Assembly: GCF_002224645.1 (NCBI RefSeq)
Contig: NZ_CP022121.1
Location: forward strand, 1,742,501-1,806,500
Direction of reading: 5' to 3'
From: Dehalobacterium formicoaceticum
GTDB taxonomy: Bacteria; Bacillota; Dehalobacteriia; Dehalobacteriales; Dehalobacteriaceae
DNA: 64,000 nucleotides
A program made the translations under genes and the position numbers. Numbering within the stretch: position 1 is the first letter of the stretch; each line of letters starts with the position of its first letter. The notes under the pieces were generated by a model. That model searched no databases and had not been told where the DNA came from. It saw nothing but the letters and a program-made list of their open reading frames with translations. Of the stretch, positions 25,339-55,990 are shown piece after piece.

Positions 25339-25431
25339 TAAGAGCAAAGCAAAACTTTCCCGCGGGAGGTGATGATGGTTTTTGCGGTTGCTGTTCCTAT
25401 GAATTGAATTTTGAAAGGAGTTGGAGAGTTT

Positions 25432-26811
25432 ATGGTTTTTACCAGACTAGGTGACGGTTCGGTTATTGAAATGTCCGTTGATGAAATCAAGCAAGACATT
25501 GAAGAAGCAACAAATGATGCCGCAGAAAGAGCGGGAGTTGCTCCCCTTTCTTCAGAAGATCAGGAACGTTTATTGGAAATTGTCACGAGAAAAGGCCGTT
25601 TTGTCGGGGTGGAACCCGGTAATGAACTGGTTTTGACCTATGACGAAGGCAGTGTTAAATTGATGCGTTTGGGCATTTCCATCGGCAGAATCCAGGATTT
25701 ACAGATCTATGAAAGATGTTTCTGCGGGGATACCGCAGAGTTAGCCCACGTGGATTATAGTTATCGTCCTTTAAAATCAATCATCCATGAAGAACAAATC
25801 ACCATGGAACAGGCTCAGCTGGTTACCGTTTTGCCTTTATTCTACGGGGCCATGCCCAATATGGCTCTGTACAGCTATCCTGACGGACCGGCACCAAATC
25901 CCATCGACTTATTGCCGGCAGGGAAAATTAAAGAAGCCCAGGCTGCCTATGAACAAGCCATCGAAATGATGATTCATGACCTGGTTTTTGCCGGCAGCAA
26001 AATGTATGAAGCCGGTGCGGACGGCATTAACTTTGATACTACCGGTTCCGCCGGGGATGCTGACTTTTATGCTACCTTGAAGGCGTCGGAAGAACTTAAA
26101 AAGAAATATCCGGATATTTGTATCGAAATGGGTATGGCCGGGGAATACGTTTTGGGGATGCATGGGGAACTTTTTTATGACGGGGTCAGACTGGCCGGTT
26201 TGTATCCTCATGAGCAGGTAAAAATTGCTGAGAAGGCCGGTGTTACCATCTTTGGGCCGGTTGTGAATATTAATTCCAGTCATTCTTTCGCCTTTGATAT
26301 TACCAGAGCCGTGACCATGTACAAAGCATGTGCGGAAGCATCCAATATTCCCATTCATGGAAACATGGGTATGGGCGTAGGAGGAATTCCTATCGTTGAT
26401 GTGCCTCCTGTTGATGCATTAAGCAGGGCATCTGTTGCCATGGCTGAAATTGCCAAATTAGATGGTTTGTAGGTTGGTGTGGGCGATCCTTTCGGAATGG
26501 CAATCAGTCACGCTATGGCTTCAGGCATGGGCGGAGTTCGTACTGCCGGAGATCTGGTAGCACGCATGCAAATGGCTAAAGGAATGCGCTTAAATGATGC
26601 CAAAAAATATGTGGCAGATAAATTAAAAGTTTCTGTCCCGGATTTAGTGGACTCTGTTGTGATGGACGAGGTCAGAGAAGACCTGGATATCGGCAGAACC
26701 CACAGCATTGCCGGTGCATCAAAGGGCCTTGAAGCAAAAGCAAATATTTCTAAAATACTTGATTTGAAAATTAACTGTGTAGAAAATTATAACAAGAGAA
26801 CGTCACGTTAA
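25432..26811 (+). CDS. mtbB: Dimethylamine:corrinoid methyltransferase with in-frame TAG (pyrrolysine)
   Basis: The frame runs through a TAG at 26470-26472 (residue 347 of 459) and resumes with VGVGDPFGMAISHAMASGMGG. Archaeal MtbB has pyrrolysine at residue 356 in the context DGIOIGVGDPLGM, and here the codons read DGL-TAG-VGVGDPFGM, an almost exact match. Upstream blocks (AELAHVDYSYRPLK, LFYGAMPNMALY, VGMAGE-like MGMAGEYVLGMHGE) also match MtbB. The enzyme moves a methyl from dimethylamine to the corrinoid protein, leaving methylamine. I chose the ATG at 25432 behind GGAG. The final stop is TAA. Decoding needs PylS and tRNA-Pyl from elsewhere in the genome. Confidence 0.95.
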
Positions 26812-39921: not shown

Positions 39922-39970
39922 TTTGCTTAAATAAGGTTTGGCAAGCAGTTAACAGAGGTATTGTTTACTT

Positions 39971-40015
39971 GGCTTAAAGATCGTCTTAACAAAGACGATC
40001 TTTAAGCCATTTTTT
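39971..40015 (+). terminator. Terminator after the vWA gene
   Basis: GGCTTAAAGATCGTCT and its complement form a 16-bp perfect stem followed by ATTTTTT. Confidence 0.93.
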
Positions 40016-40152: not shown

Positions 40153-41270
40153 ATGATGTCAACGCATCGAGCAAGGTATCTGGAACAAATACTGGAAAAG
40201 GCTTATCAAGAAATCACTTTATCAAAAAAAGAGATTACTTATTTATTAGGATTAAAGCAGGGGGAAGAAATGAACCAGGTCTTTCAGATGGCAGAGACCC
40301 TGCGCCAAAGGTATTTCGGAGATAAAATCTTTATGTATGGGTTTGTCTATTTTTCTACCTATTGCCAAAAGGATTGCGCCTTTTGCCTTTATCGAAAATC
40401 AAATCATAGCTTACAGCGCTATCGGAAAAGTGAGGCAGAAATCCTGGAGATTGCCTGTTCTTTAAAAGAGTCCGGTGTTCATTTGCTTGACTTGACCATG
40501 GGGGAAGATCCTCAATATTTGTGCCGGGATCAAGAAGGGGTGGACAAACTTTGCGGCGTGATCGAAAAGGTGAAAAAAATACCGGTTTACCTTTAATGGT
40601 TTCTCCCGGTGTAGTTTCAGGAACCGTGCTTAAAAGGTTCAGGGATATCGGTGTCAATTGGTATGCTTTATATCAGGAAACCCATACCCGTTCATTGTAC
40701 GCCAAATTAAGGTTGCAGCAGGATTATGATCAACGTCTCCAGGCAAAAAAAACAGCTCATCAAATCGGGATGCTTATCGAAGAAGGATTGCTTACGGGTA
40801 TTGGGGATCAGGGTGAGGATGTGGTAAATTCTCTACTCGTGATGGAAGATTTAAGGGCGGAACAGGTCAGGGTGATGAGTTTTATTCCTCAGGAAAGGAC
40901 ACCCATGGAAAATTGGTTCTCCCCGCCCCGGGTCCGGGAGTCTTTGATTATCGCTATTATGAGAATTATGTTTCCCGATCGTTTGATTCCCGCCTCCCTG
41001 GATGTGGATGGCATCAACGGCCTGAAACAAAGGCTGGCAGCAGGGGCCAATGTTGTAACCTCCATTATCCCTTCCCAGTCGGGACTGGCTGGGGTGTCAA
41101 ACTCCGATTTGGATATTGAGGATGGGAACAGAACGGTATATCGGGTCACAAACATTCTGGAAGAACTGAATTTAGCACCCGCCTCCCTTGATGAATACAT
41201 GTATTGGCTCGATCAAAGAACAAGTTTGGTCCGGCCCGAATTGGATTATGGAAGAGAACTCTTAGGCTAA
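40153..41270 (+). CDS. pylB: Pyrrolysine biosynthesis radical SAM protein PylB, frame disrupted
   Basis: PylB is the radical SAM methylornithine synthase, the first step from lysine to pyrrolysine. The first part holds GFVYFSTYCQKDCAFCLYRKSN with the CxxxCxxC cluster and GVHLLDLTMGEDPQYL, both characteristic of PylB. The frame then breaks in the A7 run at 40573-40579: the zero frame ends at a TAA 18 bases later, while the -1 frame continues LPLMVSPGVVSGTVLK, NWYALYQETHTRSLY and a complete C-terminus. One extra A would give an intact protein of about 372 residues. It could be an assembly error, slippage or a true lesion. No other pyl gene is adjacent. Confidence 0.88.
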
Positions 41271-41296: not shown

Positions 41297-42775
41297 TTAT
41301 CCCTTTAAACCGGCAAGATGATATGTTCTGATTTTCTGATGCAGGTATTGCCGAGAAATGCCCAGGGACAAGGCTGTTTTTGTAATATTTCCTTGATGTT
41401 GGACCAGGGAGGTCTTAATCAGGTTTTTTTCTGTTTCCAGCAATGTGCTTTTTAAGGTTCCTTGATGGACCGGGGCTTCTGGAAGACGATCTGATTGACC
41501 TAGCCTTTCCCGGAAGGACTCCGACAAATGGCTTATGTTTAAGACCTTATCTTCGGCTTGGACAAAATTCATACCGTTTTCAATGAAGTTCTTTAATTCC
41601 CGGATATTCCCCGGCCAGTCATATTGGTAAAACTGTTGCAGAAGATCGTCTGAAATCTGATTAATTAACAGACCAAACTCCTGATTATAATGCTGGATGA
41701 AATGGATGGCCAGGATACCGATATCTTCTTTGCGCTCCCTGAGGGGAGGAATATTAATCGTAACGGTCGCCAAACGAAAGTACAAGTCTGGACGAAATGT
41801 TTGATTTTCTATCGCTTCCAGGGGATCGGTATTGCTGGAACTGATAATCCTGCAATTGAGGGCGGTTTGCTTTTCACTCCCCAGTCTGCGTACGGTTTTT
41901 TCCTGGAGAACTCTTAATAATTTCGATTGCAGGGGCAGGGACATGGAATTAATTTCATCTAAATAAACGGTGCCGTCTGCTGCCTGCTCAAAAAGGCCGG
42001 GCATATCCGTCGCACCGCTGAACGCTCCTTTTACAGTGCCAAAGAGCAGACTTTCCAGGAGCGTATCCGGAATGGCGGCACAATTAATAGGGATAAATGG
42101 TTCCCCGCTATGAAGAGCAGCATTATGAATGCCATGGGCAAAAAGCTCCTTGCCGGTTCCTGTTTCCCCTACGATTAAGACATGGGAATTGTGTACCGCA
42201 ATTTTGCGCGCTTCTGCAATTATTTCCTGGATTTTCTGGTTGACACTGATGATATCTTCCAGATGATACCCATTTTCCAGGGAGAGCTTTTGATCTTGAT
42301 CAAAGAATTGTTTATGGATGTTTAAGGTCGTGGCAATAAAATCACCCATTTGATTCATATTGCGGAAAATGACAAAAACTGCTGCGATTTTACCTTGATC
42401 AAAAAAAGGATAAGCGCTGAAAATCATATTGGTTTTTCTGCCGTCTTTGGAGCGAAACCAATAAGGTTGTTCAGTGACGGGGATTCCGGTTTTCAAGATC
42501 ATTTTTGTCACTTCATCTGAAAAATAAAAAGGTTGGGGATAAACCTCATCCTCTTTTTTTCCCAATATATCCTCTCTGTTGAAACCTTCCAATTTTTCCG
42601 CTTCCCGATTGTAGAGAATGAATTCATCCCTTTCATTGACGGCGAGTACCGATTCATGGACTTTATCCAGGATTGTTTTCAATAATTGATTTTCTCTTCC
42701 CAGAGCCTCGTTTTCCTCTTCCAGTCTTTTGGCCCGATCACCATCATCTGATCTATTCAAATCGATTACCTCCAA
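41297..42775 (-). CDS. Sigma-54-dependent activator with GAFSGA loop
   Basis: This 492-residue PAS-AAA-Fis activator has a PAS domain at about residues 35-135, Walker A GETGTGKE, Walker B TVYLDE and a C-terminal helix-turn-helix (GNITKTALSLGISRQYLHQKIR). The sigma-54 contact loop reads GAFSGA rather than GAFTGA, an unusual substitution at the contact threonine. It is divergent from the APC permease gene and closely related to the activator at 44819. Likely targets are the permease and methylamine genes. Confidence 0.88.
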   Translation of the reverse strand: MEVIDLNRSDDGDRAKRLEEENEALGRENQLLKTILDKVHESVLAVNERDEFILYNREAEKLEGFNREDILGKKEDEVYPQPFYFSDEVTKMILKTGIPVTEQPYWFRSKDGRKTNMIFSAYPFFDQGKIAAVFVIFRNMNQMGDFIATTLNIHKQFFDQDQKLSLENGYHLEDIISVNQKIQEIIAEARKIAVHNSHVLIVGETGTGKELFAHGIHNAALHSGEPFIPINCAAIPDTLLESLLFGTVKGAFSGATDMPGLFEQAADGTVYLDEINSMSLPLQSKLLRVLQEKTVRRLGSEKQTALNCRIISSSNTDPLEAIENQTFRPDLYFRLATVTINIPPLRERKEDIGILAIHFIQHYNQEFGLLINQISDDLLQQFYQYDWPGNIRELKNFIENGMNFVQAEDKVLNISHLSESFRERLGQSDRLPEAPVHQGTLKSTLLETEKNLIKTSLVQHQGNITKTALSLGISRQYLHQKIRTYHLAGLKG

Positions 42776-46909: not shown

Positions 46910-48382
46910 ATGACAATCAGAAATCCCAGATCAAATTACACACAAAAAAGCGGTTTTAGCATTAACATGTACACCGATGATGAACTGAGACAAATTCATA
47001 ATGCGACATTAGAAGTTTTGTGGCTGGAAGGAGTTCATTTCACATCTAAAGAAGCTTTGGATCTTTTCGAAGATGCAGGTGCTGTGGTAGACCGCAAAGA
47101 ATCCTTAGTACGCATTCCCTCTTATTTGGTAGAAGATGCCATCCGTTCAGCTCCCAGCTCCATTGTCTTAGGCGGGCGGGATCCCAAAAATGACTGTGTT
47201 CTGGAAGACACCCGAGTCAACTTTACGACCTTTGGCGCCGGTGTGAAAATGATCGACCCCTATACCGGAGAAGTCAGAAATACCGTTAAGGCTGACGTGG
47301 CCGGGACTGCATTGGTTGCAGACTATCTGGAGGGTGTAGATGTTTACTCCCATTCAGTTTCAGCGCGGGATTGTCCCTCAGTATCCGTTGACATGCATGA
47401 AGCGGAAGCTTTCTTAAGCAATACCACCAAGCACTGCATGCATATTGACCTTCTATCCGGTGAACATGCCAAGAAATATATCGAAATGGGTGCCGCCATT
47501 ATGGGCGGGATGGATAATCTGAGAAAACGGCCTGTGATCTCTGCCTTAACTTGTCCTCAAAGTCCGCTCCAGCTGCATTCGGAATGTTGCGGAATTATCA
47601 TTGAGTTTGCCAGAGCAGGTATTCCATGTAATATTTTATCCATGGCCATGTCCGGCGCCACCACACCGGTAACCATTGCCGGAACCTTAGTCATCCATAA
47701 TGCGGAGGTTCTTGCGGGAATCACCTTATCCCAATTGGCACAGAGGGGAGCCCCGGTTATGTACGGAAGCTCCACTACCACCTTTGACCTGCAATTTGCT
47801 ACCGCTCCTGTTGGTTCCCCGGAACTGGGGATCTGCAGCGCCGGAGTTGCTGCTTTAGCCCAATTCTATCTCTTGCCCAGCTTTACCGCAGGGACATAGG
47901 CTGACAGCAAATTAACCGACGTACAAGCCGGATTTGAAAAAACCATCACAGCTTTGCTTCCTGCTTTAGCAGGTGTGAACCTGATTTATGGTATGGGTAT
48001 GTTGGAGTTAGGGGTAACCTTCAGCTATGCTCAACTTCTCATTGATGATGAAATTGCCCGCATGGTGAAGAGAGTAGTGCGCGGTGTGGATATAAATGAT
48101 GCGACCTTAGCCGTTGATCTGATCAGGAAGGTCGGTGGCGGCACCGGTAAACATTATTTATTAGAAGAGCACACCATGGAACATGTCAGAACAGAACAAT
48201 CCAGAGGGAAACTCTTTGACCGTAAAATGCGTCTAACCTGGGAAGCAGAAACCGGTGGTAAAGATGCCGGCGAACGTGCTGCTGATAAAGCCAGAGAGAT
48301 CTTAAACGAATACAAACCGGAGCCCTTGGATAAGGACGTTGCTGCCGAAATGAGAAAGATCGTAGAAAGCTTAGAAAAATAA
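46910..48382 (+). CDS. mttB: Trimethylamine:corrinoid methyltransferase with in-frame TAG (pyrrolysine)
   Basis: The frame passes through a TAG at 47897-47899 (residue 330 of 490) and continues ADSKLTDVQAGFEKTITALLP to a TAA. Archaeal MttB has about 495 residues with pyrrolysine at 334, so position and length agree. Family blocks such as IRSAPSSIVLGGRDP, AVMGG-like AIMGGMDNLRKRP and MAMSGATTPVTIAGTLV are present. The enzyme moves a methyl from trimethylamine to a corrinoid protein. No MttC gene is adjacent; the carriers at 26944 or 29303 may serve. The ATG follows AAAGGTGG. Expression is probably sigma-54 dependent. Confidence 0.95.
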
Positions 48383-54324: not shown

Positions 54325-54557
54325 AACGAGAAAGCGATGATAGGGATAAGTAAGCAGAGAGGTTGATCAGCGAATCCGGGGAGGTGGAAGCCGGGTAAGC
54401 CCACTGTTGAAATGATCACCCGGGAGCGATAACCTGAAAATAGTAGGGTTTTACGGGTTCGGCCGTTATCCGAAAAAGTAAGTGGCGTGTAATTAGCGCA
54501 ACTAGGGTGGTACCGCGGATCTTTCCGTCCCTTTGGGGATTGGAGAGATTTTTTTAT
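54325..54557 (+). promoter_or_regulatory. Ile T-box riboswitch
   Basis: The leader has a stem I region ending GATCACCCGGGAGCG with an ATC (Ile) specifier at 54415-54417, and the T-box sequence AGGGTGGTACCGCGG (54504-54518), whose UGGU pairs with the ACCA end of uncharged tRNA-Ile. A terminator follows (ATCTTTCC...GGAGAGAT then seven T, 54519-54557). It belongs to ileS, but an IS110 element now lies between them. Confidence 0.93.
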
Positions 54558-54751: not shown

Positions 54752-55990
54752 TTAATCTCTCCTTTCTGGTGGTGTGTACAGTTTGTTGGTCTTTAGTAGC
54801 ATAAAGACCAACCGTACCAATTTTCGGGCAGTTAAGACGAGAGCACGTTTGTGCTGATGTTTCAAAGCTTCAGAATACTTTTTAGCATAAAAGGCGGCGT
54901 AATCACTATCATAGCGACGAACAAGGTTGGCAGCTTGTACCAAATAGTAACGCAGATACTTGTTGCCGGTACGTAATCGCTTAGTTTCATCGCTTTCAAA
55001 TTCTCCGGATTGATATTGGGACCAAACAAGGCCTGTATACTTAGCCAGGGCATTATGATTGTCAAAGCGATTAATATCACCAATTTCAGCAATAATACCG
55101 GCAGCAAATACAGGACCAATGCCTTTGACTGAAGACAAAGTTTCAGGGACAGATTTCATGATCTTTCCAATTTCTTTATCGATCTTAGTGACTTCTTTTT
55201 CCATGGTCTGAATTACAGTAAGCATGACCGATAAAGAAAGATTAACAGGATCAGCCATGGCCTTATCAAGGCGATATGAAGAGCGAGCCAGTTTTTGTAA
55301 GAATAAAGCTAACTCTTCAGGGTTATCAAAACGGTTTTTCCCTTTTTCCTTTAGAAAATCCACCAATTCAGTAATGGACATGGAAACAATCTGTTCAGGC
55401 TCAAGTTCTTGCAAAACTGCCAGGCAGGTAGCCCCAAACATATTGGAAAAAGGGTTGTCCTGGCGCAGACCACTGAATTTAAGGAAGACCTGATTGAGAA
55501 AGTAGGTTTTGTCTCGGGCGATACTTTGCATCAGATGAAAGCGGGTTCGTGTAAGTCGCTGAAGAGCTTCATATTGAATGCACGAAGTCAATTCATGAGG
55601 AAGACGGCCAAATCTAAGTTGGTCCGCAATCACCCAGGCATCAATACGGTCATTTTTAGGAAGACAATCATATCCTTTCTTGAAACGAGCTACCTTTCTT
55701 GCATTAAGTACAAAAACCTGAGACTGAAAATCAGTAACTTCGTGGAGCCCGGCATTGAGAAAATGGGCTAAATGCCAGCCCAAATTAGAAGTAGCCTCCA
55801 TACCAACACGAACAAGACTAGTCTGATATTTGACAGCAGATTGAAGGATACGTTGCAATAAAGTTTCAGCCCCGTTTAAATCGTTGGGAATAGAAAAGGA
55901 AGCAAGAGCATCACCGGAATCATTCATGAACTGCACAGAATGAGAGCGGAGGCTCACGTCAATTCCTACCATAAGATTTGCCATATCCAC
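54752..55990 (-). CDS. IS110-family DEDD transposase
   Basis: This 412-residue transposase has an N-terminal RuvC-like DEDD domain (VGIDVSLRSHSVQF, RVGMEATSNLGWH, KNDRIDAWVIADQLRFGRLP) and a C-terminal Transposase_20 domain (SVKGIGPVFAAGIIAEIGDINRFDNHNALAKYTGL, and RTGNKYLRYYLVQAANLVRRY). The frame is intact, so it may be active. It is divergent from ileS. The ATG follows GGGAGGTGTGG. IS110 enzymes are guided by a bridge RNA coded in the element's flank. Confidence 0.93.
   Translation of the reverse strand: MDMANLMVGIDVSLRSHSVQFMNDSGDALASFSIPNDLNGAETLLQRILQSAVKYQTSLVRVGMEATSNLGWHLAHFLNAGLHEVTDFQSQVFVLNARKVARFKKGYDCLPKNDRIDAWVIADQLRFGRLPHELTSCIQYEALQRLTRTRFHLMQSIARDKTYFLNQVFLKFSGLRQDNPFSNMFGATCLAVLQELEPEQIVSMSITELVDFLKEKGKNRFDNPEELALFLQKLARSSYRLDKAMADPVNLSLSVMLTVIQTMEKEVTKIDKEIGKIMKSVPETLSSVKGIGPVFAAGIIAEIGDINRFDNHNALAKYTGLVWSQYQSGEFESDETKRLRTGNKYLRYYLVQAANLVRRYDSDYAAFYAKKYSEALKHQHKRALVLTARKLVRLVFMLLKTNKLYTPPERRD

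Follow-up and report, generated by a model that had tools for sequence, protein, structure and literature searches.

A stand-alone second pylB of Dehalobacterium formicoaceticum, interrupted as assembled at a run of seven A

To characterize an apparently broken pylB gene, we analysed a 64-kb window, by which we mean the whole stretch of Dehalobacterium formicoaceticum DNA under study. Here PylB is encoded across two frames that join at a run of seven A (A7; Table 1), and we refer to the gene as pylB2. In the list of open reading frames its two open frames are 150 and 249 aa long. They match consecutive stretches of the TIGR03910 PylB profile (5' half, E 1.9e-51, 175 bits; 3' half, E 6.8e-92, 308 bits), so the protein is nearly complete across the join. 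Each half alone scores below the cut-off of 348.2 bits, and the two frames together amount to a whole-length match. A homology-free frame-switch scan, trained on the D. formicoaceticum genome, placed the switch at 40569-40578. Open reading frames, profile halves and scan thus all confirm the -1 shift at A7 that had been read from the sequence in a preliminary description of this DNA.

The same description had held that the conserved blocks are intact on both sides of the break, and this proved correct. The radical-SAM motif reads CQKDCAFC, and 74 of the 76 near-invariant PylB columns are kept, a count within the range of other sequences, so that pylB2 has both the motif and the conserved core of PylB. 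In a tree it groups inside PylB, within the clade of operon PylBs. Because the frame is interrupted at A7, the gene as assembled does not give a full-length protein; we have therefore filed it as a PylB paralogue broken as assembled and not as a working PylB.

The pylB2 gene is bounded on its 3' side by a convergent regulator gene, and a terminator-like hairpin on its upstream side suggests that it is transcribed alone. Two methyltransferase genes with an in-frame TAG lie elsewhere in the window. A search of the 64-kb window for pylS, pylC, pylD and tRNA-Pyl found none of them; for this copy, the earlier statement that pylB is separated from the other pyl genes holds. The window also contains a T-box leader (54328-54535, 108.8 bits) near an IS110-type transposase gene on the opposite strand (54752-55990).

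Table 1. Coordinates of the features discussed; positions without a prefix are those of the window.
Feature	Position	Strand	Remarks
mtbB-like dimethylamine methyltransferase	25411-26811	+	in-frame TAG 26470-26472; PYLIS_2 match
Terminator-like hairpin	39970-40009	+	18 pairs, then TTTTTT; 3' of upstream TerF-like gene
pylB2, 5' part, frame 1	40153-40596	+	ATG 40153 to TAA ending 40596; PylB profile 3-135; radical-SAM CxxxCxxC
A7 run	40573-40579	+	frame-change site, -1, one base short; from sequence and alignment with intact relatives
pylB2, 3' part, second frame	40578-41270	+	PylB profile 138-347; open until TAA 41268-41270
sigma-54-dependent regulator, PrdR-like	41297-42775	-	convergent; bounds pylB2 on its 3' side
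MttB-like methyltransferase	46910-48382	+	in-frame TAG 47897-47899; PYLIS_3 match
Main operon pylT-pylSc-pylB-pylC-pylSn	C1:3660909-3664540		tRNA-Pyl (CUA), pylSc, pylC and pylSn around intact pylB
pylD	C1:1204569-1205288		intact; far from rest of pyl operon
ABC-2 permease	L138:10781-12075 = C1:1010781-1012075	-	split -1 at C6 (L138:11279-11284); Pfam profile 4-188, then 198-340
Cardiolipin-synthase-like gene	L172:1516-2988 = C1:3621516-3622988		-1 near G5/C5 pair (L172:2140-2167); PLDc_N, then PLDc/PLDc_2 in next frame
Alkaline-phosphatase-like gene	L158:3728-5313 = C1:923728-925313		second frame from profile position 105; N-terminal part apparently in other frame (+1)
Molybdopterin hydroxylase and xanthine/uracil permease	L145:9903-12552 = C1:2449903-2452552		hydroxylase cut in last domain, then only last third of permease
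Second pylB of Ca. Formimonas warabiya	G003:C1:1662128-1663159		frame intact; cassette L046:7611-9330, C1 around 1.66 Mb

The genome of D. formicoaceticum strain DMC (CP022121) is a single contig of 3,766,545 bp (PMC5597755). A profile search of it found one full-length pylB elsewhere (C1:3662465-3663502), which scores 506 bits against the cut-off of 348.2. This copy lies in a pylT-pylSc-pylB-pylC-pylSn operon, and pylD is intact at a distance. The genome search for another pylB and for pylTSCD that the preliminary description had proposed therefore recovers the whole set. By inspection, pylD adjoins arginine biosynthesis genes. With the operon pylB and pylD both intact, pyrrolysine synthesis is independent of the broken pylB2, and the frameshift should not prevent D. 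formicoaceticum from making pyrrolysine, as judged from its gene content. The earlier expectation that each explanation of the frameshift would have a different consequence for the two TAG genes is not borne out: nothing in the pyl set is lacking when pylB2 is left out of account, and under none of the options does the frameshift endanger them. With the pathway complete, the broken state of pylB2 is no obstacle to reading the methyltransferases with an in-frame TAG as Pyl proteins.

To place pylB2 among its relatives, we compared it with other pylB genes. It is 61% identical to the pylB of its own operon and 69% identical to the second pylB of Ca. Formimonas warabiya DCMF. In a tree of 87 sequences it is sister to this Formimonas copy (G003_1662k; support 100/97), and the operon pylB copies of both organisms lie outside the pair. 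Recent duplication of the operon pylB within the genome was rejected, as a tree that joined pylB2 to the operon pylB of D. formicoaceticum gave a p-AU of 0.0036. The placement implies either a duplication before the two genera diverged or the passage of a copy from one lineage to the other. The sequence comparisons show pylB2 to be an old paralogue with the evolutionary history of an ordinary PylB.

The Formimonas sister stands in a second cassette that is itself partial. A tRNA-Pyl gene is followed by the intact pylB and then by a pylC that is internally deleted, cut down to its start and last third, and pylS is absent nearby. We looked for a pylT remnant upstream and a pylC remnant downstream of the window pylB and found neither. 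Because the sister of pylB2 sits in this partial cassette, the arrangement points to an old second pyl cassette that is eroding while its pylB stays under purifying selection; erosion with pylB as the last part kept is our best reading of the two loci. Under it, pylB2 would be a second, stand-alone methylornithine synthase paralogue, the remnant of an old cassette common to D. formicoaceticum and Formimonas. Ca. Formimonas warabiya has four full-length pylB copies in all (C1:3579151, 1662128, 6239333 and 6279616), of which those at 3579k and 6279k belong to a different lineage and adjoin methyltransferase genes. A GTDB scan found more than one pylB in several other bacterial genomes too.

We then asked whether pylB2 carries signs of decay. 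Against the Formimonas sister, pN is 0.195 and pS 0.708 (0.204 and 0.677 for the first half, 0.189 and 0.726 for the second), values of which only the contrast between pN and pS counts, since synonymous sites are near saturation. Beyond the frame change at A7 there is no second stop or indel in pylB2. Neutral evolution would be expected to bring about 60 stops per unit of divergence, which makes neutral drift beyond roughly 5% unlikely. Nor is the end branch longer than that of the operon copy (0.30 versus 0.41). Lesions, pN/pS and branch length hence give no sign of the relaxed constraint of a pseudogene. These results imply that the frame either is intact in the cell or was broken very recently.

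Both the making of the assembly and a survey of the genome bear on whether a base is missing. The DMC assembly was built from one PacBio RSII P6-C4 SMRT cell with Canu and polished with Quiver, and short reads go unmentioned (PMC5597755). Most errors in long reads are indels in homopolymers (PMC12007338); a single-base deletion of this kind that splits a conserved gene resembles what is seen in pylB2, although at this site it is presumed, not proven. Our survey for frame switches covered 864 kb, made up of the window and 40 further stretches of 20 kb each, and Pfam served to check the candidates. The survey is rough and would miss breaks close to gene ends. Apart from pylB2 it yielded two ordinary genes with a -1 break at or near a homopolymer: one encodes an ABC-2 permease, the other is a cardiolipin-synthase-like gene (Table 1). 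Several further candidates proved to be ordinary neighbouring genes and were set aside.

The survey also holds evidence to the contrary. In the same 864 kb, about 345 A/T runs of seven inside open reading frames of at least 200 aa appear intact, so assembly errors at A7 must be rare. Homopolymers are hot spots for real indels as well. Frames are also broken in this genome where there is no long run, in an RHS gene, an IS element and an alkaline-phosphatase-like gene, and the fusion of a truncated molybdopterin hydroxylase to the end of a permease looks, from its sequence, like a large deletion. Together, these breaks and the deletion-like fusion indicate that real decay does occur. The authors of GeneTack considered singleton frameshifted genes likely to reflect an indel mutation or a sequencing error (PMC3711429), a view that fits pylB2.

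On balance, the survey and the facts of assembly lean towards an assembly deletion, short of proof. We favour, at slightly better than even odds, the reading that pylB2 is a spare paralogue from the old cassette that is one base short through such a deletion, over a recent real frameshift. The missing base would most likely be a homopolymer deletion in an assembly made with PacBio and Quiver only, and pylB2 would then probably be intact in the cell, where it may supply extra PylB for 3-methylornithine synthesis.

The strongest alternative, which we regard as a serious possibility but on the doubtful side of even, is that a one-base deletion in the A-run truly inactivated a spare pylB and was tolerated thanks to the intact copy in the operon. 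Were the base truly absent, pylB2 would be a very young pseudogene whose loss the operon copy covers. Redundancy makes such a loss easy to accept, and it would fit the trend set by the Formimonas sister cassette, which is already partly eroded. The lack of any pylT or pylC remnant beside the window copy and the other frame breaks in the D. formicoaceticum genome point the same way. However, with no second lesion, with the conserved sites kept and with a branch that is not accelerated, such a deletion could only have happened very recently, and the silence on short-read correction of the DMC assembly also tells against it.

The preliminary description had offered three explanations: assembly error, slippage on A7, and real loss with a second copy. 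The second intact pylB does exist. Slippage is poorly supported. Production of full-length pylB2 by transcriptional slippage or by -1 ribosomal slippage seems improbable to us, even though A7 lies exactly at the frame change, where the frame would be restored by a single extra A or by tRNA-Lys slipping by -1 on AAA. Of the transcription insertions made by bacteria, those in A/T runs are the most frequent (PMC5574713), but selection against slippage usually becomes evident only in runs of nine A/T or more (PMC1088944), and the pylB2 run has only seven. The zero-frame register is AAA AAA ATA and not the X XXY YYZ of tandem slippage. The Formimonas sister is continuous at the site (GTA AAA AAG AGT), and we found no conserved slippery site or frame break among the sister and paralogues, all of which are uninterrupted and without the run. 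The fold downstream of A7 (-27.4) is matched by synonymous shuffles, which have a mean of -27.1 and are as low in 473 of 1000 cases. A candidate stimulatory hairpin after A7, with a z of -2.49 against dinucleotide shuffles, disappeared against synonymous shuffles. In pylB2, then, we see neither the stimulatory structure nor the adequate run length of a programmed frameshift.

A related and very improbable idea is that a retained second PylB, uncoupled from PylC and selected in two genera, might have a role of its own, giving extra or regulated methylornithine near methylamine genes, with A7 acting in D. formicoaceticum as a low-level slippage site or phase-variation switch. That the two halves work as separate or split-protein products is barely credible: both open frames are long, but the break falls inside the radical-SAM domain, between profile positions 135 and 138, and none of the intact PylBs aligned is split there.

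Several known systems come close to pylB2. Like pylB2, the D. formicoaceticum operon pylB belongs to the TIGR03910 family and has the radical-SAM motif; it differs in being intact and in an operon, and it is not the closest relative of pylB2. The second pylB of Formimonas is likewise an extra copy outside the main pyl operon, but its frame is intact and it stands between a tRNA-Pyl gene and a deleted pylC. Among archaea, which differ from our case in domain, the accessible text of PMC3941956 describes, for Ca. M. alvus, a pylB that lies about 0.7 Mb away from pylTSCD, detached as pylB2 is, and, for M. luminyensis, two pyl clusters together with a further pylC and pylT, a duplication comparable to that seen here. 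The same text reports no frameshift in pyl genes of Methanomassiliicoccales. PylB goes unnamed in the main text, so far as it is accessible, of the EZ94 proteogenomics and DCMF metaproteomics papers.

The analysis of pylB2 also draws attention to frame breaks linked to homopolymers at other places in the DMC assembly, those in the permease and cardiolipin-synthase-like genes. The step of pyrrolysine synthesis that PylB catalyses is reported to be rate-limiting (PMC8225853), and retention of extra pylB copies, four of them in Formimonas, would therefore fit an explanation by dosage. Of mild interest is that pylB has repeatedly been retained outside the operon in this family, in D. formicoaceticum as in Formimonas. 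These results suggest that, in this family of dichloromethane-fermenting bacteria, pylB has survived longer than pylS and pylC in an old second pyl cassette.
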